Source: Guptibacillus hwajinpoensis (GTDB taxonomy: Bacteria; Bacillota; Bacilli; Bacillales; Guptibacillaceae). From it: a stretch of 64,000 nt of DNA. The stretch is from NCBI RefSeq assembly GCF_001039475.1, contig NZ_LELK01000006.1:1945-65944 (forward strand), written 5' to 3'. Below, piece by piece: positions 3,355-20,609 of the stretch (the stretch's first letter is position 1; the number at the start of each line of letters is the position of its first letter). Both the position numbers and the translations under genes were made by a program. The notes beneath the pieces were generated by a model, which searched no databases, was not told where the DNA came from, and worked only from the letters and a program-made list of their open reading frames with translations.

Positions 3355-3388
3355 AAAAGCTCTTCCTTCTAGATGCGGAAGAGCTTTT
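3355..3388 (-). terminator. Terminator after rsbX
   Basis: The inverted repeat AAAAGCTCTTCC/GGAAGAGCTTTT is separated by a 10-base loop and followed by TTTTTTATTTTG on the minus strand. It begins at the rsbX stop codon and so ends the sigma-B operon. Confidence 0.85.
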
Positions 3389-3990
3389 TAAACAGTTTTC
3401 CCTACAAGCAGGGTAATGTCATCATTTGTTGACGGAAGAGAATTCGTTAAATGCTGAAAAGATTCTTGTACTGAATCAAAACGAGCAATCATTGCATAAT
3501 TTTTGGAGCTAATTTGAACTCCATCTGAATATGTGACAAATGAAGATCCTGATGGATAATCAATTGTTTGTACTTTTACTTTCTGAGCCTTTCCAGATAA
3601 ATACCCAGAGAATGAGATTGGACGATTAATGCTTCCATCGGGTTGATAGATAATTAAGTTTATATTGCCTATGCCGCTAAATTCCATCTGCCTTGTCTTC
3701 AAATCAAGCTTAAATATAGAAAGAACACAGCCTCGTTTCCCTCTCATCTCTTCATTCGCACGCTTCATCAAGGATTCAACATCTTCATCTTGATACTCTT
3801 TCACTACATTAATAGCGGCAAGAGAGGAATCTTTAGCCATATCTCCACTTCCAAGACCATCAGCTACTGCACAAATAAAATATTCTGGTGTTTCGGCTAC
3901 ATAATAGCTGTCACCACACATCTGATTGCCAGCTTTCGGTTTCTGATAGGCTGCTACAGTGAGCTTTTTGAAATCATGATGGTGAATCAT
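3388..3990 (-). CDS. rsbX: RsbX phosphoserine phosphatase, feedback regulator of the stressosome
   Basis: This 200-residue PP2C-type phosphatase has the metal-binding motif VADGLGSGDMA (about 39-49) and the closing NDDITLLV near the C-terminus. RsbX dephosphorylates RsbS and RsbR in the stressosome and so resets the sigma-B pathway. It is the last gene of the operon, starting 2 bases after the sigB stop, with a GGAGGCC ribosome binding site inside the end of sigB. A strong terminator follows. Order and length agree with the B. subtilis gene. Confidence 0.95.
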   Translation of the reverse strand: MIHHHDFKKLTVAAYQKPKAGNQMCGDSYYVAETPEYFICAVADGLGSGDMAKDSSLAAINVVKEYQDEDVESLMKRANEEMRGKRGCVLSIFKLDLKTRQMEFSGIGNINLIIYQPDGSINRPISFSGYLSGKAQKVKVQTIDYPSGSSFVTYSDGVQISSKNYAMIARFDSVQESFQHLTNSLPSTNDDITLLVGKTV

Positions 3991-3992
3991 AA

Positions 3993-4784
3993 TTAAAAGG
4001 CCTCCGTCGGTTCAATTCGAATGGCTTGCCTTAATTTTTCAAGCGCTCTACGCTGTAGACGTGATACGTGCATCTGAGATATGCCTAGTTTCTCTCCCGT
4101 TTCTTTCTGACTCATGTTCTCGAAATAAGTGCAATTAAGAATTTCTTGTTCTCGCTCTGTTAATACTGCGAAAGCTTTTTTAAGAAGCATTTGCTGATCA
4201 ACTAAGTCGAATCCTTGTTCTTGATCGCCTACAAGATCCAAAAGGGTCACCGTACTACCTTCTTGATCTGCTTCAATCGAACTATCTACCGAAAGTGCCT
4301 GGTAGCTCTTGCCCATTTCCATCGTCTCAAGAACTTCTTCTTCAGAAACATTCAAGTATTCAGCAAGTTCATCAACCTTAGGAGAACGTTGTAATTCATT
4401 TGTTAGTTCTTCAACAGCCTTCTTAATACGTGGACCTAGTTCTTTAATTCTTCTAGGAACATGAACACTCCACGTTTTATCACGAATGAAACGTTTGATT
4501 TCTCCTACAATCGTTGGAACAGCAAACGATTCAAAACTTCTGCCGAACTCAGGGTCATACCGACGTAGCGCGGCTAGCAATCCGATCATCCCAACTTGTG
4601 CTAGATCATCATGTATGCTTTTGCCTTTAGAAAACTTACGAGCAAGAGATTGAACTAAATCCTGATACCTTTCAACCAATTTTAGTTGAACGACTTCATC
4701 AGTAGGATCATTTTGATATTGTTCAATCCACTCATACACTTCGTTGTTGTTATTATTGCGGGGATGAGGAGATTGTGTCGGCAT
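3993..4784 (-). CDS. sigB: RNA polymerase sigma factor SigB
   Basis: This 263-residue group 3 sigma factor controls the general stress response. Region 2 contains DDLAQVGMIGLLAALRRYDP and FESFAVPTIVGEIKRFIRD. Region 3 contains VHVPRRIKELGPRI. Region 4 has the helix-turn-helix QKETGEKLGISQMHVSRLQR near the C-terminus. It overlaps the 3' end of rsbW by 32 bases, so the anti-sigma factor and sigma factor are translationally coupled. Asparagine codons are stacked near the start (NNNNN at 10-14). Confidence 0.98.
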   Translation of the reverse strand: MPTQSPHPRNNNNNEVYEWIEQYQNDPTDEVVQLKLVERYQDLVQSLARKFSKGKSIHDDLAQVGMIGLLAALRRYDPEFGRSFESFAVPTIVGEIKRFIRDKTWSVHVPRRIKELGPRIKKAVEELTNELQRSPKVDELAEYLNVSEEEVLETMEMGKSYQALSVDSSIEADQEGSTVTLLDLVGDQEQGFDLVDQQMLLKKAFAVLTEREQEILNCTYFENMSQKETGEKLGISQMHVSRLQRRALEKLRQAIRIEPTEAF

Positions 4785-5235
4785 CTACTTCCACCCCATC
4801 TCTATGGAGGAACTTCGTCATCATAACTACTACTCCGTCCTCTCCACTGATTTCCACTTTGTCCATCAGCGATTCAATAAGAAAGAGACCTAGTCCTCCC
4901 TCACTGAGTTGTTCCACAGATTTATCACTATCAACTGGGCCTAGCTTCTCAGATACCTTGGTGTAATCGAAGCTTTGACCACGGTCAAGCACCATCATTT
5001 CAAGGCGGTCTTCATATATGCCAAATCCAATTGTAATTTGACCTTTTTCATCTTCCTTATATGCATGGTTCACTGCATTAGTACATGCTTCTGATAAAGC
5101 AATTTTGATGTCTTCAATTTCATCATAAGAGTAACCCATACGATTTGCGATACCAGAAACCGTTAATCTTGTAACACCAACAAACTCTGCCTGAGCAGGG
5201 ATTTTCATTTCAACGAAATCTGAAATGTTTATCAC
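4753..5235 (-). CDS. rsbW: RsbW anti-sigma-B factor, serine-protein kinase
   Basis: This 160-residue GHKL-fold kinase binds SigB and, in unstressed cells, phosphorylates RsbV. The N box is ALSEACTNAVNHAY (about 47-60) and the G1/G2 boxes are VLDRGQSFD and LSEGGLGLFLIESLMD. It overlaps rsbV by 4 bases at the start and sigB by 32 bases at the end. It is the partner-switching core of the sigma-B module, together with RsbV and SigB. Confidence 0.97.
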   Translation of the reverse strand: MINISDFVEMKIPAQAEFVGVTRLTVSGIANRMGYSYDEIEDIKIALSEACTNAVNHAYKEDEKGQITIGFGIYEDRLEMMVLDRGQSFDYTKVSEKLGPVDSDKSVEQLSEGGLGLFLIESLMDKVEISGEDGVVVMMTKFLHRDGVEVDADTISSSPQ

Positions 5236-5561
5236 TTGGATCCCCCCTTTACGTCTTCAATATCGATCACTTCATCGAGGCCAGTGATTTCAAAAAGACG
5301 CTGAACGCGTGAAGTCATACCAGTCAATTTAATCGAGCTACCGTGCTCTTTAGACGATTTAAGTGCCCCAACAAACACACCTAAGCCTGTGCTGTCCATA
5401 TAGTTAACATCACCAAGGTGAACTAATGTTTCATGACCTTCTTTTCCGGTTAGCGGAAGCAAAGCTTCACGAAGCTGAGGTGCTGTATAAGCATCTATTT
5501 CACCAGCTATATGTAAATGATGTGTATTCTCATGATCTTCTTGTTTGATCTGTAAATTCAT
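5232..5561 (-). CDS. rsbV: RsbV anti-anti-sigma factor
   Basis: This is a STAS-domain protein of 109 residues, the same length as B. subtilis RsbV when the start MNLQIKQED is chosen. That ATG has an AGGGGG ribosome binding site 8 bases upstream; the longer in-frame reading from 5588 does not. The phosphorylation site is the Ser in NYMDSTGLGVF (Ser57). Unphosphorylated RsbV binds RsbW and frees SigB. A sigma-B-like promoter lies between this gene and rsbU, so rsbV-rsbW-sigB-rsbX may be autoregulated as in B. subtilis. Confidence 0.96.
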   Translation of the reverse strand: MNLQIKQEDHENTHHLHIAGEIDAYTAPQLREALLPLTGKEGHETLVHLGDVNYMDSTGLGVFVGALKSSKEHGSSIKLTGMTSRVQRLFEITGLDEVIDIEDVKGGSK

Positions 5562-5613
5562 AACATTACCCCCTGTAGGTTGCATCAAATAATAAATAAT
5601 ATCATTATTTCCT

Positions 5614-5640
5614 TATTCCACGACTTAAGAGAAGTTAAAC
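5614..5640 (-). promoter_or_regulatory. Candidate sigma-B promoter upstream of rsbV
   Basis: On the minus strand GTTTAA (5640-5635) is followed 15 bases later by GGAATA (5619-5614). The -35 matches the sigma-B consensus GTTTAA. The -10 is a weak match to GGGTAT. B. subtilis has its autoregulatory sigma-B promoter at this exact place, overlapping the rsbU stop codon. Confidence 0.5.
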
Positions 5641-6645
5641 CTCTCTTCTTAAAATTACCAATGTAAAATCATCACGAAGTTCAAATTCTTGCAACCGCTC
5701 AAGTTCTCTATATACTTCGTCAACGATTTCCTGAGCAGAAAGGTGAATATACTTACGTATCATTGCCACAATTTCATCTCGCTCAATAAATCCACTACTC
5801 GAACGACACTCCGTTACACCATCAGATAGCATAATAACCATATCATTCCCATATAAGACACGCTGATATTCCTGATATGATGTTTTCTTAGAAACACCTA
5901 GAACAAGCCCTTTTGTATAGAGCTCCTCAAACTCATCTTTCTCTGCATCGTAAAAAAAGCCCGGCTCATGACCGGCGCCAGCATAATAAAATGAATGGAC
6001 CCTTGGGTCATATAATCCGTAAAACATTGTAATAAACATATTAGGATCTACATTCTGTTCAACCACTCGGTTCAAATTCTCAAGCACGGCTCCTGGTTGC
6101 ATTCGCTGTTCAGGCGCACTATCCATTGTGTACTTAATCATACTCATACATAACGCAGCAGGGATGCCTTTTCCGATTACATCGGCAATTGCTACACTCA
6201 TGCAATTATTCTCATCCTGAACAAAATGATAGTAATCTCCACTCATCTTTTGAGCAGGTTTACTAATAGCACCAATATCGAGACCTTTCACATCAGGCTT
6301 ATCACCCGCCAACAACGTTTGCTGCATATTAGCAGCAATTTCAATTTCTGACTCTAGCTGTTGTTGACGGCTTCTAAGACTTTGGTGCTCCCTGTAGGCA
6401 AACCCATAACCAATCATCATCTCTAACAAGAAATCATAAGAGTTTTTAAGACGTTGTGGAATATCAGGAAATAGTTCTTCAAGTACACTTACATGAAGGC
6501 TAACAGCTTCTTCAGGGGAAATTTTTTGCTCAATCATTTTCCTGCTAAACTGCTGTCCTTTGTATAGTGTTTGCTCCGACTGCTCTTGTAAATAATTCTC
6601 TAATATAGATTTGTATTTTTGATATTGAAGATCTCGGTCATCCAT
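5635..6645 (-). CDS. rsbU: RsbU PP2C phosphatase, environmental branch activator
   Basis: This 336-residue protein (B. subtilis: 335) has an N-terminal four-helix domain that binds RsbT. It is followed by a SpoIIE/PP2C domain from about residue 115 (DIGAISKPAQKMSGDYY, VADVIGKGIPAALCMSMIK, LSDGVTECRS, RDDFTLVIL). When RsbT leaves the stressosome it activates RsbU, which dephosphorylates RsbV. It is preceded by rsbT with a 15-base gap and an AGGAGG ribosome binding site. Confidence 0.96.
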   Translation of the reverse strand: MDDRDLQYQKYKSILENYLQEQSEQTLYKGQQFSRKMIEQKISPEEAVSLHVSVLEELFPDIPQRLKNSYDFLLEMMIGYGFAYREHQSLRSRQQQLESEIEIAANMQQTLLAGDKPDVKGLDIGAISKPAQKMSGDYYHFVQDENNCMSVAIADVIGKGIPAALCMSMIKYTMDSAPEQRMQPGAVLENLNRVVEQNVDPNMFITMFYGLYDPRVHSFYYAGAGHEPGFFYDAEKDEFEELYTKGLVLGVSKKTSYQEYQRVLYGNDMVIMLSDGVTECRSSSGFIERDEIVAMIRKYIHLSAQEIVDEVYRELERLQEFELRDDFTLVILRREV

Positions 6646-6660
6646 AGTGGCCTATCCTCC

Positions 6661-7062
6661 TTAACGGAGCCATTTAATAGAAGTAATAATTGTTCCTTCA
6701 TTTTCTTTCGAATCAATCGTAAACTCATCCATTAAGCGTTTAACTCCCGGAAGACCTGCTCCAAGACCACCAGAGGTGGTAAAACCATCTTCCATTACTT
6801 TTCGTATATCCTTAATTCCAGGACCCGAGTCAGACGCTTCAATTTTAAGACCTAATTTACCACCGTTTTCCACACGTTCAATGGCAACTTCGCCACTTCC
6901 AGCATAAAGGTATATGTTACGAGCGAGTTCAGAGATTGCCGTTGTAATTCGAGCCTGATCAACTGTGCCAAACCCAAGTTCTTTAGCAATGTTTCTACCC
7001 GACTGTCTCGCCTTAACAATATCCCATTCATTTCGAACTTCCACACAGGATTGGATATTCAT
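6661..7062 (-). CDS. rsbT: RsbT switch serine/threonine kinase
   Basis: This 133-residue GHKL kinase has the N box TTAISELARNIYLYAG and G boxes EASDSGPGIKDI and TSGGLGAGLPGVKRLMDEF. In the family it phosphorylates RsbS and RsbR in the stressosome, then dissociates and activates RsbU. It starts 3 bases after rsbS, with the ribosome binding site within the rsbS 3' end, consistent with coupled translation. Confidence 0.97.
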   Translation of the reverse strand: MNIQSCVEVRNEWDIVKARQSGRNIAKELGFGTVDQARITTAISELARNIYLYAGSGEVAIERVENGGKLGLKIEASDSGPGIKDIRKVMEDGFTTSGGLGAGLPGVKRLMDEFTIDSKENEGTIITSIKWLR

Positions 7063-7065
7063 AGC

Positions 7066-7422
7066 TTATCCCCCCAATTCCTGTTGTAATTTCTCTAACC
7101 CCTGTTCTAAATCTAATGCAGTTGGGACATTTTTCATCATGATGCCGAGATCGATCAACGTGATAGCAACAGCAGGTTGAATTCCTGTTAGCACCACTTT
7201 TGCCCCCATTAAATTCGACATGCGTACAACATCACCTAGTACTTTGGCGATAAATGAATCAATCATATCGACAGATGTCAGATCAATTACAACGCCCTTT
7301 GCTCCGGTTTCGTGAATCTTTTCGAGCAAATCCTCCTGAAATTGAAGTGCCGTTTTGTCATCAAGGTCTACCTGAATTGTAATTAACAGATATTGATTTA
7401 GTTTCAATATAGGAATTCGCAT
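7066..7422 (-). CDS. rsbS: RsbS stressosome scaffold antagonist
   Basis: This is a single STAS domain of 118 residues. The conserved phosphoserine lies in [10 protein letters not shown] (Ser56 here; Ser59 in the slightly longer B. subtilis protein). RsbS forms the stressosome core with RsbR paralogues and sequesters RsbT. It follows rsbR by 12 bases, with a GGGGGAAG ribosome binding site. The sequence is nearly identical in pattern to B. subtilis RsbS through the whole STAS fold. Confidence 0.97.
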
Positions 7423-7434
7423 GGTCTTCCCCCC

Positions 7435-8256
7435 TTACTCAAGCTCAATCATTTGTCGTTTAGTCAATTCTAACGCTGATTTCATACCTTTAAATAGTGT
7501 ACTCTTAGTCGGGAATTGTCCCAAATCAATTCCAAGGTTAACAATTGTTTGCGCAATCTCAGGTCTAATACCAACTAGAATACATTGTGCTCCAACAAGG
7601 CGGACTGCTTCAGCTGCCTGAATAATATGGTGAGCAACCATTGTATCCACAACAGGAACACCAGTAATATCAATAAGAACTACTTGAGATCTATGTTTAA
7701 TAACACCCGTCAACAAGTTCTCCATGATAAGTTTAGCGCGTTCTGTATCAATGGTTCCGATGAGTGGCATTACACTGATATTCTCAAAAACTGGAATAAG
7801 AGGTGCAGATAATTCTTGAAGAGCAACTTTCTGGATGGATACAGTATTCTCCCAATTCTTAGCACTCTCATTAATTAGCTGATTAACAATAGGATCAATC
7901 CAACGATCAATTTCATCGTACATAGCGAATACTTTTTCATTAGACTGATTTGCATCCAGAATGATTGCTAAGATAATACGGCGGAAATTCTGCAAACCTT
8001 GCGTAATATAGCTAAGTCTCCACCCTATTTTCATTAAGTGCTCGGCAAACTCTGTCATACGATCTGTTGGCTTATGAACATTTTGTTCAATATGCGTGTA
8101 GATAATCTCAAACAATTCTTGATTTGTTTCCTCGTAAGCTCTATCTGTTATTGATTGTAGCCGATGTTCATCACGTACTCTTTCCATCTCGTCCATCCAT
8201 CTAGTATAAATACGTTCACGGCTTTCATTCAATAATTGTATTACTAACTTGTCCAT
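7435..8256 (-). CDS. rsbR: RsbR stressosome co-antagonist
   Basis: The protein has a non-haem globin-like N-terminal sensory domain (about 1-135), a linker helix and a C-terminal STAS domain. I place the start at MDKLVIQLLNESRERI because GGGAGGAG lies 7 bases upstream. With this start the phosphorylated threonines of B. subtilis RsbRA fall exactly at Thr171 (GTIDTERAK) and Thr205 (PVVDTMVA). The reading frame is open upstream to 8319, but that part has no ribosome binding site. It is the first gene of the sigma-B module. Confidence 0.96.
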   Translation of the reverse strand: MDKLVIQLLNESRERIYTRWMDEMERVRDEHRLQSITDRAYEETNQELFEIIYTHIEQNVHKPTDRMTEFAEHLMKIGWRLSYITQGLQNFRRIILAIILDANQSNEKVFAMYDEIDRWIDPIVNQLINESAKNWENTVSIQKVALQELSAPLIPVFENISVMPLIGTIDTERAKLIMENLLTGVIKHRSQVVLIDITGVPVVDTMVAHHIIQAAEAVRLVGAQCILVGIRPEIAQTIVNLGIDLGQFPTKSTLFKGMKSALELTKRQMIELE

Positions 8257-8446
8257 CTTGCTCCTCCCTACGATCTTACTGCGTTCATTTATCTTCTCAT
8301 TGCGAGGAACTCCCCGCAATCATTATGCTTTCCTAATTCTAGCGCATCACATCATTTTAATCTTAACACACTTTTCGACAGAACTAGAATATTACCTGCC
8401 ATACCCCACACGAAAAGCATCAAATAATTCCTTTAAGATACAAAAA

Positions 8447-10427: not shown

Positions 10428-10550
10428 ACTTCATTTCCTCCTGAAACAAATCACTCTGCTTTCTATTTTAGGAGTTTTTAAGAAAATCGCAAGCAGGACT
10501 ATCTGAAATGAGTGAACTTGCTTCCTCTTAATCAGGTACATAATTTCTAA

Positions 10551-10581
10551 AGAAGGTTCAGCTGTGTCAGCTGAACCTTCT
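10551..10581 (-). terminator. Terminator after the ydcC-like gene
   Basis: AGAAGGTTCAGCTG/CAGCTGAACCTTCT is a perfect 14-base stem with a 3-base loop. It is followed on the minus strand by a short T-rich run, directly downstream of the 10589 stop. Confidence 0.75.
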
Positions 10582-10588
10582 TGGAGTA

Positions 10589-11602
10589 TTATTTAATTTC
10601 TGTTGTTCCATACACAGATCTTGCAACAGAGACCATCTCGTCTATTGATAAATCGTCTGAAGCAAGGAAGAAGTCAACCCCATTATGGTTCCAACTAACT
10701 GTTGACTCTGTCATAACGCCCATTGTGAAACCAAGATCTACCGGCTCTCCTTCACCAACTGATACAGGTGCACTTGTCTCAAGTGCAGCCTTACTCTTTT
10801 CCTCAATCAATGTGAATGATTTTTCACCAGTAAAGGTTAATATCACCTTATCCGTTGCCACTTCTTTCTCGTCTGTAAGCCCCGTACCTTGAGGCTCATA
10901 CATCGGGTAGACGACTTCAAAAGGTTCATTGGTAGCTGCAATGACCGGCACTTCAAGCTGAGCTGCTGTCATATTTCGCTCCATATCAAAAGCACCTTTG
11001 TCGAATGAAGCATTGAATTTCATATTGGAGAATTCAATGTTCACTAACGGCTTCAAATCTTGGTTCATTATTGTCACTTTCTCAGGAGCAAGATCTTTCT
11101 TGTTTAGCTTAATTGATTGCTTAGATAAGTTTTTGTTCTGATAGTTTGTTTTGGTCGTGAAGACATAGTCATTATCTTTTGCTTCAAAGCCAGCACTCGA
11201 GTCATTTAGAATATCAGACACCAGCGTGTTGTATAGATATGCCTGACTTCCGTTTTCAGGCCAATTACTTTGAAATCTGAAACTTTTATTAAGCGCTGGG
11301 GTAAGGACGAACACACCCTCATCATTTCTTAAAATAATTTGGCTTTGCTCTTTCGTTGCGTTCTTTAGTTCTACTCGATAATAAGATGGCTTCTGATACC
11401 AGATTTCTACATCATACCGTTGCGGTTCTTCTCCTGTTTCAAGTGTCATCTTAGCATTTACTTTATAGCTGTCCATTTCATTTAACTTTTTATCTAAAGC
11501 GTCTACTACATCCTGCTGACTTTTTTGTCCGCATCCAGCAAGGGCAACAAGCATCAGTATCCCGATAAGTAAAACAGAACCGAACCTTTTCACTATATCC
11601 AA
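10589..11602 (-). CDS. ydcC: YdcC-like sporulation lipoprotein (LolA-fold)
   Basis: This is a 337-residue exported lipoprotein. The signal peptide ends in the lipobox ALAGC with the lipidated cysteine at residue 24. The mature part has the LolA/YdcC-like fold (KLNEMDSYKVNAKMTLETGEE...) and probably binds lipid or anchors at the membrane. YdcC is expressed during sporulation in B. subtilis, but its molecular role is not known. It is followed by a strong hairpin, and its order nnr-ydcC-alr is that of B. subtilis. Confidence 0.88.
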   Translation of the reverse strand: MDIVKRFGSVLLIGILMLVALAGCGQKSQQDVVDALDKKLNEMDSYKVNAKMTLETGEEPQRYDVEIWYQKPSYYRVELKNATKEQSQIILRNDEGVFVLTPALNKSFRFQSNWPENGSQAYLYNTLVSDILNDSSAGFEAKDNDYVFTTKTNYQNKNLSKQSIKLNKKDLAPEKVTIMNQDLKPLVNIEFSNMKFNASFDKGAFDMERNMTAAQLEVPVIAATNEPFEVVYPMYEPQGTGLTDEKEVATDKVILTFTGEKSFTLIEEKSKAALETSAPVSVGEGEPVDLGFTMGVMTESTVSWNHNGVDFFLASDDLSIDEMVSVARSVYGTTEIK

Positions 11603-11653
11603 CTCCTTTGCCTCATTTAAAACGACAAAGGAGGTTCCTGTGCGGTGAAAAAC

Positions 11654-13186
11654 CTATCCGTGGTTTTGCTCAAGAAATGAATGCAGAACAGCTGGTATAG
11701 TTGCGATAACGTCGGTTGCCAATACGTCCAGGGTTGAATGAGCTGTTTGAACCAGAGTATCAGCGGATTTACCGTGAACAAAAACAGCATTGCTTATCCC
11801 TTCTTGAATGGACTGACTATGCATGACAAAAGCGAGTACCATCCCAGTCAACACATCACCGGATCCACCTTTTGCTAAAGATGGGTTTCCTGTCGTGTTG
11901 ACGAATTGATCTCCTTCAGGTGTGGTCACAATTGTATAAGGTCCTTTTAACACAAGGTATACACCATACTCACGTGCAAACGACCGAGAGATTTCGAATC
12001 GTCTACTTTGAATGTCTTGAATAGAACATCCAGTAAGCCTCGCCATTTCTCCTGGATGTGGAGTCAAGATCGTCGGTGACTTTCGTGCTTTCACTTCATC
12101 CTTCAGTTCCTTCAAATGATATAGCGCATCGGCATCCAGAACGAGAGGCACTTCAGTTGCAAGCACTACCTGAACGATCATGCTGCATCCGACTTCCCTT
12201 CCAAGACCAGGACCAATTGCAATACCATCGAATTCAGAAAGATCACCAGACACTGCTCCAGAGAAAGTACCATTATGTGAAGACCACCCTTGAAACAACG
12301 CCTCTAACATAGTACTTGTTACTAATGAAAGGATATCATCTGGGACAGCGACCTGTAGTAATCCTGCGCCACTTCGATAGGCAGCTTTCGTTGTCATTAC
12401 AGGTGCTCCAGCCATTCCCCTTGATCCGCCAATCACCAGACCTTTTCCATGGCTTCCTTTATGAGAGGATGACGTTCGATCGGTCAGTGTACGCTGAACA
12501 TCCGAATTATGCCAGAGCTTTCTGTGTAAAGCTTCTCTAAAAGCATGTTGTGGCAGCCCAATATTAATTACTTCTAATTCTCCATAATAATCAGCATCAG
12601 GGTAAAGGAAGGCTCCTAACTTCGGGCATTGAAGTGTATAAGTTCTGTCAGCATGAATAGGCTGAACATCTCCTTCGAACCCACCATTAGCTTGTAAGCC
12701 ACTCGGCAAGTCGACAGATATAATGAAAGCAGACGACTCGTTTACTTTCTGTACAACTTCATCATATGGCGAACGAATCACCCCTGATATGCCAAGCCCT
12801 AACAGACAGTCGATTATGACGTCATACCTTGCAAGTTTTTGTTGAAATGCTTCTCCACCCTTATAGGCATTCCACTCATAAGACAAGCTGGTATAAATGC
12901 CAAAATGAGTAGCAGCATCCCCCTTTAATTTTGATTGGGGAGGAATGACCCATACATCAACATTGTAACCATTATCTTTTAAATACCTTGCAAGAACGAA
13001 GCCGTCTCCTCCGTTATTCCCTGATCCAATTAACACAGCAATCCGTTCATTTTTGTGAATTCTGCCCTTCATTGCTTCAAAAAGTGCTTTACCTGCGTTT
13101 TCCATAAGCACTACGCCACTTAAACCAATCTCCTCCATGGTAAACCGGTCCGCTTCATACATTTCTTCTCCGGATACGATTCTCAC
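11654..13186 (-). CDS. nnr: Bifunctional NAD(P)H-hydrate epimerase / ADP-dependent dehydratase
   Basis: This is a fusion of about 510 residues. The N-terminal YjeF/NnrE epimerase domain contains IGSGNNGGDGFVLARYL and is followed by a ribokinase-like NnrD dehydratase domain (KGSHGKGLVIGGSRGMAGAP, LTPHPGEMARL, NTTGNPSLAKGGSGDVLTG). Together they repair hydrated NADH and NADPH. I choose the GTG at 13186, which gives MRIVSGEEMYEADRF, because AGGAGGG lies 7 bases upstream. An upstream ATG at 13225 adds residues not typical of the family. It lies between acpS and ydcC. Confidence 0.95.
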   Translation of the reverse strand: MRIVSGEEMYEADRFTMEEIGLSGVVLMENAGKALFEAMKGRIHKNERIAVLIGSGNNGGDGFVLARYLKDNGYNVDVWVIPPQSKLKGDAATHFGIYTSLSYEWNAYKGGEAFQQKLARYDVIIDCLLGLGISGVIRSPYDEVVQKVNESSAFIISVDLPSGLQANGGFEGDVQPIHADRTYTLQCPKLGAFLYPDADYYGELEVINIGLPQHAFREALHRKLWHNSDVQRTLTDRTSSSHKGSHGKGLVIGGSRGMAGAPVMTTKAAYRSGAGLLQVAVPDDILSLVTSTMLEALFQGWSSHNGTFSGAVSGDLSEFDGIAIGPGLGREVGCSMIVQVVLATEVPLVLDADALYHLKELKDEVKARKSPTILTPHPGEMARLTGCSIQDIQSRRFEISRSFAREYGVYLVLKGPYTIVTTPEGDQFVNTTGNPSLAKGGSGDVLTGMVLAFVMHSQSIQEGISNAVFVHGKSADTLVQTAHSTLDVLATDVIATIPAVLHSFLEQNHG

Positions 13187-13243
13187 AACAGGTCCCTCCT
13201 GACCGTGGTAAAATATATGAGGCAAGTCGCAAAGTTATGCAGA

Positions 13244-13603
13244 CTAGCTTGACGAGCTCTCAATAATGATTTGCGCCACCGCATGTTGCCTCGTGTGTGA
13301 AATGGTAATATGTATGCGTTCATCCTCACCTCTTGCCTCAATATAAGGTGCGCCTTCAGAGGATTTTTTGATTGAAATATCCTGAAAGCTTAGTTTACCA
13401 ATTCCTGTTCCTCTCGCTTTCGCATAAGCTTCTTTAGCTGCAAACCGACCAGCAAGAAATTCCACACTTCTATGTCCACTGAGTTTGCTATACATCTCAT
13501 GCTCACCACTCGTCAGAATGCGTTCTGAAAAAGATGGGTTCCTTTCAACAGCTTTCTGAATACGCTCAAGTTCAATTAAGTCGACGCCAATTCCGATAAT
13601 CAT
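13244..13603 (-). CDS. acpS: Holo-[acyl-carrier-protein] synthase
   Basis: This enzyme of about 119 residues transfers 4'-phosphopantetheine to ACP. The conserved motifs are [10 protein letters not shown] near the start and [18 protein letters not shown] in the middle, plus [11 protein letters not shown]. The start [10 protein letters not shown] has GGAGGT 7 bases upstream; the reading frame is open 20 codons further upstream but without a ribosome binding site. Gene order acpS-nnr-ydcC-alr is conserved in Bacillus. Confidence 0.96.
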
Positions 13604-13737
13604 GAAAAACCTCCATAGTACTATCTTCTTAAAATAAAGCATAAAGTTATAAATAGTGCTCAAGTTGAAAGCTATGCTAAACTAGTAAGAAATAAAAAGA
13701 TAGTTCATTGTATTTAAATGTCGCTTACTTTATAAAA

Positions 13738-13848
13738 GTCTCTTTCCTAAATGATTGTTGCTGTTAAAACAATTATTGAATAAAAAACATCGCTGATTGG
13801 AGCGGAAATTCAACCACTCTTACAGCAACAATGTATACGAAAAGAGCC
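13738..13848. repeat. MITE-like interspersed repeat, copy A (short form)
   Basis: This copy runs from GTCTCTTTCCTAAATGATTG to CAATGTATACGAAAAGAGCC. The ends are imperfect inverted copies of the family terminus GGCTCTTTTC...CATTGTTGCT. It carries the AACAATTATTGAATAAA and CGCTGATTGGAGCGGAAATT internal blocks but lacks the GC-rich centre. It fills most of the gap between acpS and the rhomboid gene. Confidence 0.8.
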
Positions 13849-13886
13849 AAACAAAAAATTTAATCTGTAGAAAAGGTGGTTAATAT

Positions 13887-14651
13887 ATGTTTTTGCGAAA
13901 TGAAGATTTTCGCTCATTTATCCGCTATTATCCTATCATCTCCATACTTATTGGTATACATATCCTCCTCTTTATTATGGTAAACCTTTTCGGGACGTAC
14001 TCCATTTTCAATTTAGGAGTAGGCTCAAATCGAGCGATTGAGGCCGGGCAGTACTGGAGACTTATCACACCAATCTTTCTACACGCCGGCTTTGCTCACG
14101 TGTTGTTCAACTCTTTCTCGCTTTACCTTTTTGGCCCTGCTTTAGAGCAGATGTTAGGTAAAGTGAAATTCTTAATTGGTTACTTTGGTGCTGGTATCAT
14201 TGCAAACATCGCTACTTTTTATTTACAGGACAGTACATTTAGTCATGTAGGTGCGTCCGGTGCGATCTTCGGCCTATTCGGAATCTATTTCTATATGGCC
14301 TTCTATCGAAAAGAGCTCATTGATCAGGCAAACTCCCAGCTGATTTTGATGATTCTTGGAATTGGTCTAGTTATGACGTTCATTAGTCCCAACATTAACG
14401 TTCTCGGTCATTTATTCGGCTTTCTCGCTGGTGCAGCATTAGCACCTATACTTCTTATTGGTGCCAAACCCTATATTAACCGAGGTATGATTCGTGTTAG
14501 GCGGGCAGCTGATACTAGTGGGGATATTCGCTTTAAACCTAACAGATGGCAAAAGCGTAGAATTCGTTCTGGTTCTGGAGCAGGAAGCAAGATCATCTGG
14601 GGAATCTTCATTGTTCTCGTAGCACTTGGCTTCATCGTACGGTATTTCTAA
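13887..14651 (+). CDS. Rhomboid-family intramembrane serine protease
   Basis: This 254-residue membrane protein has six or more hydrophobic segments. The catalytic serine is in GASGAIFG (about residue 129) and the catalytic histidine in NVLGHLFGF (about 175). The conserved loop AGFAHVLFNSFSLYLFGPALE is also present. A basic tail (RWQKRRIRSG) faces the cytoplasm before a final hydrophobic segment. It corresponds in position to B. subtilis ydcA. It is the only plus-strand gene between the cmpA and 19931 genes and is flanked on both sides by short repeat elements. Confidence 0.92.
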   Translation: MFLRNEDFRSFIRYYPIISILIGIHILLFIMVNLFGTYSIFNLGVGSNRAIEAGQYWRLITPIFLHAGFAHVLFNSFSLYLFGPALEQMLGKVKFLIGYFGAGIIANIATFYLQDSTFSHVGASGAIFGLFGIYFYMAFYRKELIDQANSQLILMILGIGLVMTFISPNINVLGHLFGFLAGAALAPILLIGAKPYINRGMIRVRRAADTSGDIRFKPNRWQKRRIRSGSGAGSKIIWGIFIVLVALGFIVRYF

Positions 14652-14672
14652 TGAATGAGTATATAAATAGAA

Positions 14673-14762
14673 GGCTCTTTCTAAAGATTGTTGCTTTTGA
14701 AACAATTATTGAATAAAAACCCCACTTATACTCTTGTAGCAACAATCACTAAGAAAATAGCC
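14673..14762. repeat. MITE-like interspersed repeat, copy B (short form)
   Basis: It begins GGCTCTTTCTAAAGATTGTT and ends with CAACAATCACTAAGAAAATAGCC, with the internal block AACAATTATTGAATAAA. It is the shortest copy (90 bases) and contains only the two termini and a small AT-rich centre. Confidence 0.75.
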
Positions 14763-14770
14763 AAATAGAA

Positions 14771-14806
14771 AGAAACCGGTGATTAGATAGACAATCACCG
14801 GTTTCT
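14771..14806. terminator. Bidirectional terminator between the rhomboid and STAS genes
   Basis: AGAAACCGGTGATT/AATCACCGGTTTCT forms a 14-base perfect stem with an 8-base loop and T- or A-rich flanks. It ends one base before the stop of the STAS gene on the minus strand. Confidence 0.85.
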
Positions 14807-15577
14807 TTATTTCAATGGAGATTCCATATAGTACTGAATAGCGTCCTTTAATTTGCCAGTTAGTTCAAAGTTCTGATCTAATTCGAAATCAAGATTTAAT
14901 AGGTGAAAGACATGCGAAGGCTTTAATCCACATAACACGGGTATCACTCCGATCACATTCACCATTTTGCAAAAGGAGTGTAAGGCATGAGCACCGCTCT
15001 CTTCTATTTCTCCAACACCACTAAAATCAATAATAACGCGCTCATAGTCTTCATTGCGAAGTGAGTAAAGCAGTTCATTCTCATTCACTTCAAACAACTC
15101 CTGTTCGAGCGTTCCGAATAAAGGGATAACTCCAATAGTTGAAGAGATTGGCAGGAAAGGGCTAGATAACTTTTTAATTCTTTTTAAAGCCGTTTCTAGC
15201 TCTTCCTTTTTATCTAGCAAATCAAAGTTGGTTTCAGATAATCTCTCTCTTTGTTTTTGGATTGACTCTCCAAGCTTTGCAATTCTTTGGTCCTGCTTAA
15301 CACATACAAGTTGAGCTGTTCCCTCTTTTGTCCAATTTGAATACACGTTATAAAGCGAATAAGATTCATGTTCCGTGTTCAGTACCAACTCGATCTCTAC
15401 TTGCTCCTCATGAGGCGTGAGATACTTTTTCGCCTTTGTCCTGCTATACTTGTCCACAAGATCTAGAAAAGAAGAGGGGGAAGTAAAGGACTCACTGGCT
15501 AGTTGTGACTCATCAATAATTTCTAGCTTTTCGTTAACGATAAACGCAGGGAGTGGATGATTCTTAATATTAAACAT
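14807..15577 (-). CDS. RsbR-like STAS protein with PAS-like N-terminus
   Basis: This is a protein of about 256 residues. Residues 1-95 look like a PAS fold (NHPLPAFIVNEKLEIIDESQ), 96-138 form a coiled coil rich in E, K and R, and 139-256 form a STAS domain. The STAS entry LSSPFLPISSTIGVIPLFGTLE resembles RsbR LSAPLIPVFENISVMPLIGTID. Aligned to the window's own RsbR, the two phosphothreonine positions are Gln and Glu, so RsbT control by phosphorylation there is unlikely. The start ATG (15577, GGTGGAG upstream) overlaps the upstream B12-binding gene by 8 bases. The two proteins probably act together as a sensor and effector feeding the sigma-B or a related pathway; this is inference. Confidence 0.8.
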   Translation of the reverse strand: MFNIKNHPLPAFIVNEKLEIIDESQLASESFTSPSSFLDLVDKYSRTKAKKYLTPHEEQVEIELVLNTEHESYSLYNVYSNWTKEGTAQLVCVKQDQRIAKLGESIQKQRERLSETNFDLLDKKEELETALKRIKKLSSPFLPISSTIGVIPLFGTLEQELFEVNENELLYSLRNEDYERVIIDFSGVGEIEESGAHALHSFCKMVNVIGVIPVLCGLKPSHVFHLLNLDFELDQNFELTGKLKDAIQYYMESPLK

Positions 15578-16220
15578 GACCATCTCCACCCTTTCGATTT
15601 TCTAACCATAAACGAACCTGATCGAGATTTGGAACTACTATCGTTTCCTTAGAGCAATACTTTGATAAGTCATACTGTGCAGCTAGTCTACCGCCAACTA
15701 TCACTTCAGGAGTCTTTTCTAACCCTTCAAGCTCTGTCACATAGTGATTAAGTCGCTCAACGTGAGACATAATGGAGACCGAAATTCCTACAACGGACGC
15801 ATCCCACTCCTCTACCGTATCAATAACGTGCTCTAGTGGTAAATTCGCTCCAAATAATTTAGTTTGCCAACCGTACTCTTGAAAAAGCAGCGAAATCATT
15901 TTTAACCCTAAATAATGTTGCTCTTGTTCAATACATAGAAATAGTGCACGTGGACCGTTCGTATTCTTACTCGTTAATTTTCTAGTATAGGCATACCGAG
16001 AAAGCACATAATCGCAAGTGGTTGTAGCAAGATGCTCATCTGCTACAGAAATTTCATTTTCTTCCCATAGCTTTCCTACTCGTTGCATGGCTTTCGTTAA
16101 TGCTTCATACGTTAAATGGCTATCTTCCATCAAAATCTTATGCTCTGCAATTCTATCCCACGCTCGATCCTGATCGCCTTCAAGAAAGTCGTTTGTTAGT
16201 TGTTGTATATCAATTGTCAT
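15570..16220 (-). CDS. B12-binding sensor protein (CarH-like modules)
   Basis: This 216-residue protein has a helical B12-binding-2 domain (about 1-85) followed by a Rossmann B12-binding domain (about 90-205). It has W52-x9-E62-H63, the Wx9EH signature of CarH/CarA-type photoreceptor bundles. It also has a base-off cobalamin motif: E100-x-H102-xx-G105 (Asp replaced by Glu), S147-x-S149 and G176-G177, at the usual spacings. There is no DNA-binding domain, unlike CarH, so output must go through a partner. The partner is probably the STAS protein encoded next in the operon. Alternatives are a corrinoid methyltransferase subunit, but no methyltransferase genes are nearby. The light-sensing role is inference. 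Confidence 0.85.
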   Translation of the reverse strand: MTIDIQQLTNDFLEGDQDRAWDRIAEHKILMEDSHLTYEALTKAMQRVGKLWEENEISVADEHLATTTCDYVLSRYAYTRKLTSKNTNGPRALFLCIEQEQHYLGLKMISLLFQEYGWQTKLFGANLPLEHVIDTVEEWDASVVGISVSIMSHVERLNHYVTELEGLEKTPEVIVGGRLAAQYDLSKYCSKETIVVPNLDQVRLWLENRKGGDGHV

Positions 16221-16276
16221 ACTTTCACCTCTCCTTCTTCTAAGACCTCTATCGTAATATTCTTATTCCAACCAAT

Positions 16277-17719
16277 TTATTCACCATGTTTTAATTCAAT
16301 AGAACGCTCACTTGCTTCATATGAATACCAATCCAGAAGTGACTGTCCCTCAAACTGATCAATATCTCTCACTCGAAATTGTTTACCTGCAAAGCTCGAG
16401 AGAATCGACAGCTGGAATGTTGTTAATAATCTTCGTTTCTGAAAATAAGTCGTTTGCATCTCCATAGCTTGAATTCTTCTTCGCGCTACGTAGACACGCG
16501 TTCTCCCAATCTGCCTGAACTGTAAGAGGGCAATCCCTTTCTTTACACTCCAACCTGCATCACGATAATGCAAATAACCAATTAGGCAGGCGAGTGGAAT
16601 CAATAGAATGGATATATACCCATATGGAATGAAATAACTAAGAACACCAATTGGTATAAGGGTTGGAAGAGTAAATCGAATCATATAACGTCGTCTTGCA
16701 CGAGTAGGCAAAGACTCGACATCGTTATGAATGGGAATTTCCGGTAATGCCTCTTTAAGAAAAGACTTAATATGTTTACGCTTCATTAGAGGGTACAAAA
16801 CCGTTGAGAATTGTTCATCTTTCCCTCCGCCTCCGCCGCTTTCTACGTAAATTGCAGCATAACCAAAAGGCTGGCGTAAAAGACCTTCTACCACCCTGAT
16901 TGCTTGAATTCTGTGTACAGGTATTGTTAATTGTCTCTTTTCAAGAACACCTCGATGGATAAGTAGATCATTTTCCTGACGAGACAAAACAAACCCTCCG
17001 TATTTTAAAACCGTTCCTGCAACCGAGAAAATCCATGACAAAATCAGAATAAAAGCGACTGTAATCAGAATAAGTGGAATTGTTGCATCCAAAATCGTTT
17101 CTGTTGCTCTCGTATAGAATTCACCAGGAATAAGATCATCCAATTGGGAACCAATCGCCGCCACAAAAGAGAGAACAACGCCTATTCCACCTGAAGTTGA
17201 TGCAGCTATGAGAAGCTGACGCCACGTTAATTTATACTCTAAAACAGGTGCGACTTCTTCATCCACTTCTTCTATTGTACTTTTCTTGTCATACAATTCT
17301 TCTTTTAAACGCTCCGCATCAAGACGCCTTAATGCTGGCATAACGACCTCTGGTTCACCGCCTCCACCAGCCGTCTCAATTTGCACTTTTACTAGTCCAA
17401 AAAGACGTTGAATAACACCTTGTGAGAAATCAATAGATTGAATTCTCTCTCTTGGAATAAAACGTTTTTTGCGAAAAATAAAGCCCTGATGAATGCGCAA
17501 TTCATTGTTTTGTATTTGATATGTATAGAAGAGCCAGCCCATAACGCCATTTACCAGCGTGAAAACAAGTAGTCCTCCAATTGCTACGAAATGCCACCAT
17601 GAATAGCCACCTCGTCCAACAAAAACGAAAAAGATGAGGGGAAGTGCCGCCTCTCTAATAGAACTAATAAACGATAGAAGCATTGCTACAGGATGAAGAC
17701 GCTTGCGATCAAACATCAT
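16277..17719 (-). CDS. ydbT: PH domain-containing membrane protein YdbT
   Basis: This membrane protein of about 480 residues has three bacterial PH (bPH2/YdbS-like) domains, each beginning after a transmembrane pair. The motifs are RERIQSIDFSQGVIQRLFGL, VHRIQAIRVVEGLLRQPFGY and RRRIQAMEMQTTYFQKRRLL. It is co-encoded with ydbS, and its start overlaps the ydbS stop. ATGs at 17737, 17719 and 17716 are in frame; a GAGG sits 10 bases before 17719. In B. subtilis YdbS-YdbT affect resistance to certain bacteriocins, but the biochemical role is unknown. Confidence 0.88.
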   Translation of the reverse strand: MMFDRKRLHPVAMLLSFISSIREAALPLIFFVFVGRGGYSWWHFVAIGGLLVFTLVNGVMGWLFYTYQIQNNELRIHQGFIFRKKRFIPRERIQSIDFSQGVIQRLFGLVKVQIETAGGGGEPEVVMPALRRLDAERLKEELYDKKSTIEEVDEEVAPVLEYKLTWRQLLIAASTSGGIGVVLSFVAAIGSQLDDLIPGEFYTRATETILDATIPLILITVAFILILSWIFSVAGTVLKYGGFVLSRQENDLLIHRGVLEKRQLTIPVHRIQAIRVVEGLLRQPFGYAAIYVESGGGGGKDEQFSTVLYPLMKRKHIKSFLKEALPEIPIHNDVESLPTRARRRYMIRFTLPTLIPIGVLSYFIPYGYISILLIPLACLIGYLHYRDAGWSVKKGIALLQFRQIGRTRVYVARRRIQAMEMQTTYFQKRRLLTTFQLSILSSFAGKQFRVRDIDQFEGQSLLDWYSYEASERSIELKHGE

Positions 17720-18230
17720 CTTCTGCCATCCTCGCAAGAACTGAAATTCGATCCCTTAGTTCATCTGCGATTTCATTAGAAAGAGCTGGTATTTCATGTG
17801 TTGTTGCTGCGGTTGAAATAGTAACAGATGATAGCTGATTCGCTCGTAGCAATGGTCCTTGTCTCGTGTCAACATGCTGAACTCGAACCATTGGAATCAA
17901 TGTCCGTGTCACCGTAATAACACCGTGCTTTAACTCTACTTCATGCTCGCTAACTTCATATCGCCATTTTCTCCACTTAAGCTTAGGGAGGACCCAAACT
18001 TGTAGAATAGTAAATAGAATGACGAGAAGGATGCTTACTACTAAAACCCAATAAGGTATGGTGTAGACGAGAAAGTGGATCATAAATAAACCCACAAGAA
18101 TAACGATGCTTACAAACGATACAATCGCGCCTGTTATTTGCCATACTTTTAACCCTTTTGGATCAATTTTTTTCGAAGGTTCTGGTCGCATTCTTTTCCT
18201 CACTTTCACATTTATAGCTTCATCACTCAT
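17709..18230 (-). CDS. ydbS: PH domain-containing membrane protein YdbS
   Basis: This 173-residue protein has two transmembrane segments (about 35-75) and a bPH2 domain (WRKWRYEVSEHEVELKHGVI, VRVQHVDTRQGPLLRANQLS). It is the upstream partner of ydbT and overlaps it, so the pair is translationally coupled. The conserved context acpS-rhomboid-ydbT-ydbS supports the names, although the B12-STAS pair is inserted between them here. Confidence 0.9.
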   Translation of the reverse strand: MSDEAINVKVRKRMRPEPSKKIDPKGLKVWQITGAIVSFVSIVILVGLFMIHFLVYTIPYWVLVVSILLVILFTILQVWVLPKLKWRKWRYEVSEHEVELKHGVITVTRTLIPMVRVQHVDTRQGPLLRANQLSSVTISTAATTHEIPALSNEIADELRDRISVLARMAEDDV

Positions 18231-18391
18231 GGTCTTTCACATATTATAGCATTGTTGCAGTTCACCTTCTATCTTCACACTTTATTAAAAAACCGTATAC
18301 TTAAACGTCTCTACTCCACAATCTTTCAGAACTACTCACAACAAAAAAACCTGAGCATATTCTGCTCAAGTTCATTGTTCTCTTTTATTAA

Positions 18392-18622
18392 GGCTCTTTT
18401 CGTAAACATTGTTGCTATAAGAGTGAGGGGGATTTCCGCTTCAGGATGCTCGCTTTCCGCGGGGCGGGCGGTGAGCCTCCTCGGCGCACAAAAACATTGC
18501 GCCTGTGGGGTCTCACCTGTCCCGCTAGTCCCGCAGGAGTCGAGCACCTTCCGCTCCAATCAGCCAAGTTTGGTTCTTTATACAAAATTCTTTCAAAAGC
18601 AACAACCTTTGAGAAAAGAGCC
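18392..18622. repeat. MITE-like interspersed repeat, copy C (long form)
   Basis: This is a 231-base element with terminal inverted repeats (GGCTCTTTTCGTAAACATTG ... AAAGCAACAACCTTTGAGAAAAGAGCC in outline) and a GC-rich palindromic centre containing GGTCTCACCTGTCCCGCTAG. It occupies most of the 410-base gap between ydbS and the next gene. Open reading frames crossing it on either strand have no ribosome binding site and are not real genes. Confidence 0.88.
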
Positions 18623-18640
18623 TTTAGAAAAAAGCCTTTA

Positions 18641-19543
18641 TTAAAAATGATTCGAAGCATAAGGCCGTTCTGCTTCTCTCATACTGATGATTTCTTTTTC
18701 TTCATGATCCCAAATTGCTAAGATTTTTGATTCTGCATTATAGAAAGTTAAGTGTTGATCCGTGCACGTTAAAAGCTCGCTACTTGGGATAGGAAACTTT
18801 TCCTGCTGACCGGTTTTGGGACAGATATAGACAAGCTGATCACTTTTCCCAGTTCTACCGTTTATGCCATGGACAATTAATAACCCACTCCATGAGTATA
18901 TCGTACGAGGAGAGAAATCAAGCTTAAACGAATTCTTCACTTGAAAATGCTCATCAAGAAGAAGGACCTGATCTTGTCGAGCGGAAGAGATTGATAGAGC
19001 AGCTACATACAAACCTTCATCAGCAATCATCATGTTAACCGGTGAATAACCTTCTTCAAGTGGAGTCACCTTTTTACCAGTATCTCCAAATGTGGTTAAG
19101 AGAGCCTCATCCCCTTCAACATGGTAGGACGAAACAATCAGCTGGTTTCCCTTTCGCTTAAGGTCACAGAAAATCCCTTTTACATGCCACTGATGTATCA
19201 TGCGCGGATCGTCCTTTGCGAACTCATAAATCCATCCATTCCACTCTTCACCTTCACATGCAATGCAGACTGAATTAGGAAACTCATAGAAGCTTGGTTT
19301 TCCGTTTACCTGAAAGGTTCTCAGTTGAGCAAGACTATGAACAAAAACATAAACTTCAACATGATTCGATGACAGCTGTTTAGTAAACCAATAATTCTGA
19401 TTGGAATCTCTAATTACGTTAGAAAAACCTTCATCACTAGCAATGGGTAGTTTGGGCACATTGTCCTGCTTCGTAGTATATGCTGTGATAGACGAATCAT
19501 GTTCATCAGACTTTAGTGCTTTGTTCCCTTGCTCAAGCGGCAT
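18641..19543 (-). CDS. Uncharacterised soluble protein, possibly a beta-propeller
   Basis: I do not recognise this 300-residue protein. I use the ATG at 19543 (MPLEQGNKALK) because GGGGAG lies 7 bases upstream. It has no signal peptide or membrane segment. The sequence is rich in short beta-strand blocks alternating with turns (LIVSSYHVEGDEALLTTFGD, LYVAALSISSARQDQVLLLD, LLIVHGINGRTGKSDQLVYI), each about 40-50 residues apart, which suggests a propeller-like fold. The neighbours give no functional clue. Downstream is a MITE-like element and not a clear terminator. Confidence 0.55.
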   Translation of the reverse strand: MPLEQGNKALKSDEHDSSITAYTTKQDNVPKLPIASDEGFSNVIRDSNQNYWFTKQLSSNHVEVYVFVHSLAQLRTFQVNGKPSFYEFPNSVCIACEGEEWNGWIYEFAKDDPRMIHQWHVKGIFCDLKRKGNQLIVSSYHVEGDEALLTTFGDTGKKVTPLEEGYSPVNMMIADEGLYVAALSISSARQDQVLLLDEHFQVKNSFKLDFSPRTIYSWSGLLIVHGINGRTGKSDQLVYICPKTGQQEKFPIPSSELLTCTDQHLTFYNAESKILAIWDHEEKEIISMREAERPYASNHF

Positions 19544-20569: not shown

Positions 20570-20609
20570 ATAAGAGCCTACGATTGAATGTAATAAGAAA
20601 ACAAAAAAA

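Follow-up and report, generated by a model that had tools for sequence, protein, structure and literature searches.

A cobalamin-binding protein paired with a PAS-helix-STAS protein near the sigma-B operon of Guptibacillus hwajinpoensis, a candidate light input to the stressosome

What might a small cobalamin (B12)-binding protein do when its gene overlaps that of a protein resembling the stressosome component RsbR? This question is raised by a two-gene locus of Guptibacillus hwajinpoensis that encodes a sensor of 216 amino acids (aa) and a partner of 260 aa, and that lies in the 64,000-nucleotide stretch of contig NZ_LELK01000006.1 (assembly GCF_001039475.1, positions 1,945 to 65,944) analysed here, which we call the window. 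A preliminary description of this DNA proposed a cobalamin-based input to the stressosome and placed the pair near the sigma-B operon, and indeed that operon lies about 6.5 kb away. We propose, at a probability that we put at roughly one half, that the sensor is an adenosylcobalamin (AdoCbl) photosensor that docks on its partner, a YtvA-like adaptor, and thereby modulates the stressosome and sigma-B.

The pair and its two proteins

The sensor and its partner form a real unit. Their genes, both on the minus strand, overlap by 20 nucleotides, and the partner lies directly downstream of the sensor on the same strand in 80 of 80 named homologous loci, which are the best of 305 confirmed in a search of genome contigs. 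As the closest matches to the window these 80 are a biased set, and for this reason 40 extra loci were added, hand-picked and mostly lower-scoring, from the listed part of an order-wide search. All 40 have the partner, including the 30 that are new once the 10 duplicates of earlier loci are set aside. Pairing in 80/80 named and 30/30 new loci rules out chance neighbours, and it bears on the proposal in the preliminary description that co-occurrence would show whether the two families always adjoin: few exceptions exist elsewhere. In a first sample of relatives 28 of 29 close B12 loci (the window's excluded) have the partner, and a table of 130 module rows, which excludes broken B12 genes of less than 180 aa, contains three partnerless rows, two of which (L018 and L144) are one locus and the third L126. 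Sensor distance also tracks the distance of the partner's PAS domain and helix (r 0.84, shared ancestry not removed) across 116 pairs, L088 and the partnerless rows having been dropped.

Of the 397 genomes covered by the order-wide search, 257 have a sensor match at E 1e-15; 175 of these fall below 1e-33 by hand count, and the remaining 82 score in the range of LitR/CarH-like genes. In a phylum-wide sample of 398 genomes just 6 have a match that reaches 1e-35, and three of these matches are to longer fusion proteins. A distant genome of that sample encodes a B12-binding domain fused to a helix-turn-helix that reads as XRE-type, not MerR (L178:1228-2121, plus strand).

The preliminary description took the first gene for a cobalamin-binding protein with Wx9EH, ExHxxG and GG motifs and no DNA-binding domain, which the reading frame, Pfam and the residues themselves bear out. 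Both the cap domain (B12-binding_2, PF02607, E 2.1e-10, 41 bits against a cut-off of 23) and the Rossmann domain (B12-binding, PF02310, E 8.3e-14, 51.9 bits against 32.1) are matched, and in the 216 aa Pfam gives no third domain above cut-off and neither Pfam nor NCBIfam a helix-turn-helix, so that the MerR-type DNA-binding domain of CarH and LitR is absent. The helical cap carries Wx9EH (W52, E62, H63), a typical mark of photoresponsive AdoCbl proteins of the CarH and photocobilin type, and the base-off/His-on ligand motif ExHxxG is present as E100, H102 and G105. Among 119 sensor homologues W52, E62, E100, H102, G105 and S147 are invariant, H63 and G176 are each found in 118 and G177 in 107; S149, the second Ser of the SxS motif, is Ser in just 75.

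We note that "CarH-like", the label given by the preliminary description, holds for the cap-plus-Rossmann cobalamin fold and fails for the type. Searched as a single sequence against the PDB, the sensor is nearest to the photocobilins 8j2w/8j2x (E 4e-11), with CarH 5c8a at 0.0017 and AerR (7te2) at 0.0033; a 15-sequence profile gives 7e-23 for 8j2w, 3e-15 for the corrinoid protein 1y80, 6e-11 for methionine synthase and 4e-10 for CarH, and with the NCBIfam CarH equivalog, whose cut-off is 400, the sensor scores 47.6. Judged by these comparisons the B12 domain is closer to photocobilins than to CarH, and the globin domain that is fused to the B12 domain in photocobilins is absent from the 216-aa protein. 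The cofactor itself should be available, since the window genome holds two cobalamin riboswitches and two adenosyltransferase genes; cobalamin adenosyltransferase (PF01923), found in 100 of 101 relatives, is too universal for co-occurrence testing.

Could the sensor instead be a corrinoid carrier for a methyltransferase, its STAS neighbour being incidental? Its weak similarity to MtgC, MtbC and MtaC, all far under cut-off, would point that way, but the alignments show that 8j2w retains the Trp and Glu-His of Wx9EH whereas 1y80 lacks them at the aligned sites, and a partner with a PAS domain and a STAS, kinase or short end is present at every locus of both sets. A census in which the non-overlapping open reading frames of the 80 loci were all clustered, down to a length of 80 aa, found no corrinoid methyltransferase among the families recurring in at least five loci; two families that read as S-adenosylmethionine-dependent methyltransferase-like, in 7 and 5 loci, both lie far from the pair. 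The usual proximity to methyltransferase genes that the preliminary description had named as evidence against its proposal is therefore not what the 80 loci hold, and on the sub-cut-off model scores, the census and the 1y80 residues we reject the carrier as very improbable.

The partner was described beforehand as a PAS-like, coiled-coil and STAS protein with an RsbR-like STAS domain, and the analysis agrees. STAS (PF01740) is matched at E 1.8e-7; by sequence the domain is nearest to RsbR (E 1e-12) and YtvA (1e-9), with RsbS at 0.003 and SpoIIAA at 0.08, and the best NCBIfam match is YtvA_fam (66 bits, below the cut-off of 250). An AlphaFold2 model built on 41 sequences (mean predicted local distance difference test, pLDDT, 88; predicted template-modelling score 0.52) has a PAS-like fold (residues 15-98), a long helix and a STAS domain. 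The best PDB match of this model in Foldseek is full-length YtvA over 258 columns at E 3e-11, and the template-modelling (TM) score of just 0.40 and root-mean-square deviation of 19.7 indicate that the domains are placed differently in the model; a Listeria stressosome chain comes second, and PAS domains including that of PpsR stand further down. Pfam gives no PAS match in the window partner, and the PAS identity is weakly suggested by the model together with a PAS_9 match below cut-off (E 3.3e-4) in the homologue L022. The LOV flavin-binding Cys motif of YtvA was not found on reading the 260 aa.

As was also noted beforehand, the positions of the RsbR phosphothreonines hold Gln and Glu, which the alignment identifies as Gln163 and Glu197, and a LOV-STAS protein of the same genome (L036) is likewise without the two threonines. 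Besides RsbR, the window genome encodes 11 further related-STAS proteins (L033-L034, L036-L044), several of which are without one or both threonines and whose N-terminal parts read as diverse: LOV in L036, PAS-like, GAF-like and others. These possibly make up a large stressosome repertoire. The coordinates of the pair and of the neighbouring features are collected in Table 1.

Table 1. Features of the window around the sensor and partner genes, with the basis for each.
Feature	Position	Strand	Basis
PAS-helix-STAS transducer gene (partner), 260 aa	14807..15589	-	Open reading frame, STAS match, YtvA_fam, RsbR, AlphaFold2, Foldseek
PAS-like domain, residues 8-98	15296..15568	-	AlphaFold2, Foldseek PAS hits, PAS_9 in homologue, cross-type identity
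Long signalling helix, residues 101-141	15167..15289	-	AlphaFold2; most conserved part within STAS-type partners
RsbR/YtvA-type STAS domain, residues 142-256 (Gln163, Glu197)	14822..15166	-	Pfam, sequence comparison, alignment
B12-binding sensor gene, 216 aa	15570..16220	-	Open reading frame, Pfam, nearest PDB photocobilin, conservation in 119 homologues
PF02607 four-helix cap domain, residues 6-73	16002..16205	-	Pfam
PF02310 cobalamin-binding Rossmann domain, residues 91-180	15681..15950	-	Pfam
ydbT/sensor junction, 56 bp; most genus relatives carry heme-monooxygenase and photoglobin-like genes here	16221..16276	-	Open reading frames, sequence, genus comparison
15-bp perfect inverted repeat, 8-nt loop, between the pair and rhomboid	14770..14807	.	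Sequence reading; not listed by terminator scan
Sigma-B operon rsbR-S-T-U-V-W-sigB-rsbX	3388..8319	-	Open reading frames, same order in other genomes, RsbT search; names by reading

A four-gene operon and its reduced form

Just four families recur widely in the clustering of the 80 loci. Besides the sensor and the partner these are, with counts taken by profile, a globin-like family (about 120 aa, 59 loci) and a family with an ABM domain (about 101 aa, 58 loci), and the family that comes after them occurs in 12. Both extra genes stand directly upstream of the sensor and on its strand in 57 of the 80, in the order ABM-globin-sensor-partner; of the other copies, those of L120 go with its kinase module, and L118 has a lone globin gene on the opposite strand. 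The ABM protein is related to the heme-degrading monooxygenases HmoB and IsdG (E about 1e-4), its nearest structure being 1iuj (8e-7).

Sequence support for the globin assignment is modest. A 37-sequence profile of the globin-like family reaches E 2.4e-4 against phycocyanin alpha and 0.009 against the photocobilin globin domain, a four-sequence profile having given 0.11, and 14 of the 37 members match Pfam Phycobilisome (best 1.6e-5). The AlphaFold2 model (pLDDT 94) matches phycobiliproteins and smURFP at TM 0.6-0.7; among the Foldseek matches listed the best E is 0.008 and none is below 0.001, and nearly all are phycobiliproteins or their relatives. A Cys-x-x-Asp of the family aligns on the Cys-x-Arg-Asp (CXRD) of phycocyanin, the role of whose Cys is treated in PMC10151467; at least 90% of the 37 members keep this Cys, and two of the four that formed the first profile lack it. 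Two genomes of the phylum sample encode globin and B12 domains fused in a single chain (L179, L180). Among 101 relatives, with sets assembled by hand and partial globin matches (G008, G097, G100) counted as absent, a full-length globin is encoded by 38 of the 45 genomes that have a module and by 2 of the 56 that have none. In two loci (L138, L143) the B12 gene is interrupted and the adjoining globin and PAS-STAS genes are open, a sign either that the B12 half has been lost or that the assembly is wrong there.

The phycobiliprotein-like globin, the heme monooxygenase and the globin-B12 fusions together lead us to see in the four-gene operon a photocobilin divided over separate proteins and provided with a bilin source of its own, and it looks like one wired to STAS. 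We speculate, tentatively and a little short of even odds, that the IsdG-type monooxygenase makes a bilin, perhaps not biliverdin, held by the stand-alone phycobiliprotein-like globin; that the cobalamin protein is a second pigment; that a PAS-STAS adaptor resembling YtvA but lacking a chromophore, whose place a PAS-histidine kinase can take, carries the combined signal to the stressosome in many Bacillales; and that the window holds a natural B12-only derivative.

The same anatomy would, however, serve a sensor of cobalamin level, redox state or heme, whose cofactor state rather than light would change its docking on the PAS-STAS protein and so act on the stressosome. PMC9144470 describes heme binding by SCHIC domains, which share this fold, the relatives' operon includes a heme-handling gene, and the window form has no globin gene. 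Against this stand the essentially invariant Wx9EH with its photoresponsive association, the photocobilins as nearest structures, and the coupling of the sensor in relatives to a bilin-type globin, which points to light; we consider such non-photosensory use unlikely.

Loss of the two extra genes is what sets the window apart. The heme monooxygenase is absent from the 56-bp junction between ydbT and the sensor, the search for it having been made at the locus, and no photoglobin-like gene was found at E 1e-6 in the window genome or in G002, G005 and G013; of the 14 genomes sampled from the genus, 9 have the globin at full length. On the tree, which is a quick one and in which a number of inner branches are weak, the losses in the window lineage and in G005 (L012) appear as separate events. 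The preliminary description supposed that the pair might be an acquired module interrupting the rhomboid-ydbT order, and here the genus comparison contradicts it: 13 of the 14 genomes have the module at this site, the fourteenth (G008) retains fragments of the monooxygenase, globin and STAS genes there without a sensor, and a genome of another family (G059) carries the four-gene operon beside the same rhomboid-acpS-lolA-alr-rsb-sigB block, so that recent acquisition is ruled out.

Is the window pair then a decaying and now functionless remnant of the four-gene operon? Two of the four genes are gone, the congener G008 has only fragments, and the ratio of non-synonymous to synonymous differences (pN/pS) of the window pair is somewhat above that of four-gene relatives. 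Yet both frames are intact with all cofactor residues retained, pN/pS is 0.18-0.25 against sister species lacking the same two genes, which indicates purifying selection, and a two-gene form occurs elsewhere, 21 of the 80 loci having neither globin nor monooxygenase in the locus (this count includes L082, where just 265 bases are available upstream of the sensor and the presence of the extra genes cannot be judged). Decay we hold to be quite improbable, and the window pair is apparently a reduced but functional B12-only form. The inverted repeat between the pair and rhomboid is a possible two-way terminator; no Rfam match lies in window positions 9000-22500.

Outputs and the proposed link to sigma-B

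In the mechanism that we propose, the sensor would bind AdoCbl base-off/His-on through H102, with W52, E62 and H63 closing off the adenosyl side in the manner of CarH and photocobilins. Light would break the Co-C bond and so change the helical cap, and the sensor would dock on the partner's PAS domain, on the long helix that follows it or on both, in the way that the B12-fold (SCHIC) domain of AppA docks on the PAS-flanked Q-linker helix of PpsR; this case and the AerR-CrtJ models are the docking precedent found in PMC9144470. The partner would be YtvA-like without a chromophore of its own, and its STAS domain would sit among the RsbR-like proteins of the stressosome and alter the release of RsbT, and with it sigma-B activity, the partner itself not being phosphorylated at either of the usual threonine positions. 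Most of the relatives examined would have a second, bilin chromophore, supplied by the heme monooxygenase and the photoglobin-like protein, and the window lineage would have lost both of these genes while keeping the B12-only form. The cofactor, light, docking, entry into the stressosome and direction of the effect are all steps that we infer. The cobalamin input to an RsbR-like STAS system put forward in the preliminary description thus stands in its genomic pairing, its lack of a methyltransferase and its RsbR/YtvA-type STAS domain, and its light input and stressosome binding keep the conditional form that we give them here.

The outputs are not uniform. Of the partners in the 80 loci 77 are STAS proteins (that of L088 split in two frames) and three are short forms, and the 30 new loci have 21 STAS, 5 histidine-kinase and 4 short partners, L215 (180 aa) having been re-labelled as short. 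Kinase-type partners carry HisKA and HATPase_c, HisKA falling short of its cut-off in two of four that were scanned. In L120 and L137 the phospho-acceptor His reads as kept. In three others (L029, L030, L031) an ATPase domain is present and this His reads as replaced at the aligned position. Short partners consist of the PAS domain and a truncated helix region, and 7 of the 11 short-type loci with enough flank adjoin a protein of at least 1,000 aa. A kinase profile is matched by five of these large proteins, and the two scanned (L092:6330-9914 and L111:1153-4752, both minus strand) are CheB-CheR-PAS-histidine kinases. One genome, Metabacillus lacus (L120:2314-6405), holds two divergent back-to-back modules, one a B12 gene with a STAS partner and the other a B12 gene with a kinase that keeps its His, the globin and monooxygenase genes lying on the kinase side, and so offers a natural comparison of two outputs.

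A sensor tree of 119 of the 130 module rows, from which L144 and cores almost identical to others had been removed and in which L088 was labelled short though its STAS is present in the second frame, follows output type with 5 changes against 20.4 in shuffles, and the kinase-type sensors form one branch with support 97. In this tree the modules of Chryseobacterium sp. ISL-80 (L063) and Paenibacillus sp. FSL R5-0490 (L086) group with Bacillus-like relatives, and these genomes are possibly mislabelled. PAS similarity is 0.26-0.30 across output types against 0.32 within the STAS type, whereas that of the helix is 0.44 within the STAS type, 0.27 to the kinase type and 0.16 to the short type. A PAS domain conserved to a similar degree across types, with a helix conserved mainly within one, suggests that the PAS domain is the common docking part; the helix may be a transmission element or a second contact.

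Across the 101 relatives RsbT occurs in 33 of 33 genomes with STAS-type modules and in 48 of 68 others (p 1.4e-4), and with one genome per genus in 18 of 18 and 32 of 47 (p 0.0065). Taking modules of any type together it is found in 44 of 45 genomes, against 37 of 56 without a module, the sole module genome that lacks it (G076) having a kinase-type partner.

A number of findings weigh against a photosensor acting through the stressosome. The residue after W52 is Glu in 111 of the 119 sensor homologues, where Thermus CarH has His, and just 7 and 9 of 101 aligned partners, a redundant set that includes the same genome from two collections, have Ser or Thr at the two RsbR phosphothreonine positions. 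A comparison of the four-gene relatives L048 and L047 gives pN/pS of 0.08 and 0.11, lower than the window pair, so the reduced form may be under weaker constraint. Since the sensor family is also paired with histidine-kinase and short partners, sigma-B is not its sole output, and since RsbT is also present in 11 of the 12 genomes whose modules are all kinase-type, short or partnerless, the co-occurrence is not specific to STAS. RsbT is common anyway (81 of 101 genomes), 13 of the 33 STAS-type genomes come from a single genus, in two of the 33 (G065, G066) the B12 gene is broken, and the shared sigma-B neighbourhood may be inherited. No enrichment of sigma-B promoters was seen upstream of the heme-monooxygenase gene in 64 loci, a score of at least 10 on the sigma-B consensus being reached in 7 (10.9%) against 7.9% of shuffles and 5.8% of random windows.

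The absent threonines, the kinases used by related modules or encoded beside the short ones, the RsbT of genomes with non-STAS modules and the missing promoter signal could also be taken to place the STAS protein outside the stressosome, in a separate partner-switch or as an adaptor for another kinase, phosphatase or enzyme. This we regard as doubtful, because the STAS domain is far closer to RsbR and YtvA than to RsbS or SpoIIAA, every STAS-type genome has RsbT, and the module lies in the sigma-B neighbourhood in two lineages.

Relation to known systems

If the photosensor reading is true, a cobalamin photosensor, in relatives probably with a bilin as well, feeds the best-studied bacterial stress hub alongside YtvA. 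It would concern a large share of the order, judging from the 175 of 397 sampled genomes with strong B12 matches, whose neighbourhoods were examined in part, and would suggest a role for stand-alone photocobilin-type B12 proteins in Gram-positives. The operon would represent a natural split system in which the genes for sensor, pigment and output can be swapped, and its four-gene form and the B12-only form of the window would be a matched pair for dissecting the roles of the pigments.

No description of the Bacillales operon, with its ABM monooxygenase, separate globin, B12 protein and PAS-STAS or PAS-kinase protein, was found in the titles and abstract openings of the literature searched. The photoglobin study of Schneider (2022) reportedly predicted photoglobin-B12 coupling and its use with signalling domains, and may already show part of the operon. 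The words STAS, Bacillus and Firmicutes are absent from the accessible text of PMC10151467, as are STAS, stressosome and Bacillus from the text of PMC11796333.

The sensor shares the cap-plus-Rossmann B12 fold of CarH and LitR and differs from them in having no helix-turn-helix; the window genome also holds a separate B12 protein (L002) with a MerR-like start, of the LitR/CarH kind by reading. AerR/PpaA and AppA-SCHIC, acting with CrtJ/PpsR, likewise set a small B12-fold protein without a DNA-binding domain on a PAS-plus-helix partner (PMC9144470), but here the adjacent partner is a PAS-STAS protein without a DNA-binding domain and not a DNA-binding regulator, and the sequence is farther (7te2, E 0.003). 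With YtvA, the LOV-STAS blue-light input to the stressosome, the partner shares a PAS-type N-terminal domain, a long helix and an RsbR-type STAS domain; it differs in that its PAS domain is without the LOV flavin-Cys motif, and the chromophore would sit in the separate B12 protein.

The globin/B12/heme-oxygenase clusters named BBAG-2 combine a separate bilin-binding globin, a B12 protein and a bilin-making enzyme, but as described in PMC10151467 they use PcyA-type enzymes and belong to Myxococcales, whereas the enzyme here is of the ABM/IsdG type. In the photocobilins (SasPcob, AbDPcob) and photoglobin-B12 proteins the B12 domain with Wx9EH is the closest structural relative of the sensor, and a bilin-type globin likewise accompanies the sensor in many relatives of the window. 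PMC10979010 characterises photocobilins, including their response to light, and suggests from predicted interactions a link of SasPcob to STAS/SpoIIE. In the operon described here, by contrast, sensor, globin and output are separate proteins of a single operon that also encodes an IsdG-like heme monooxygenase, and the window copy goes without the globin and has a PAS-STAS protein as its output.

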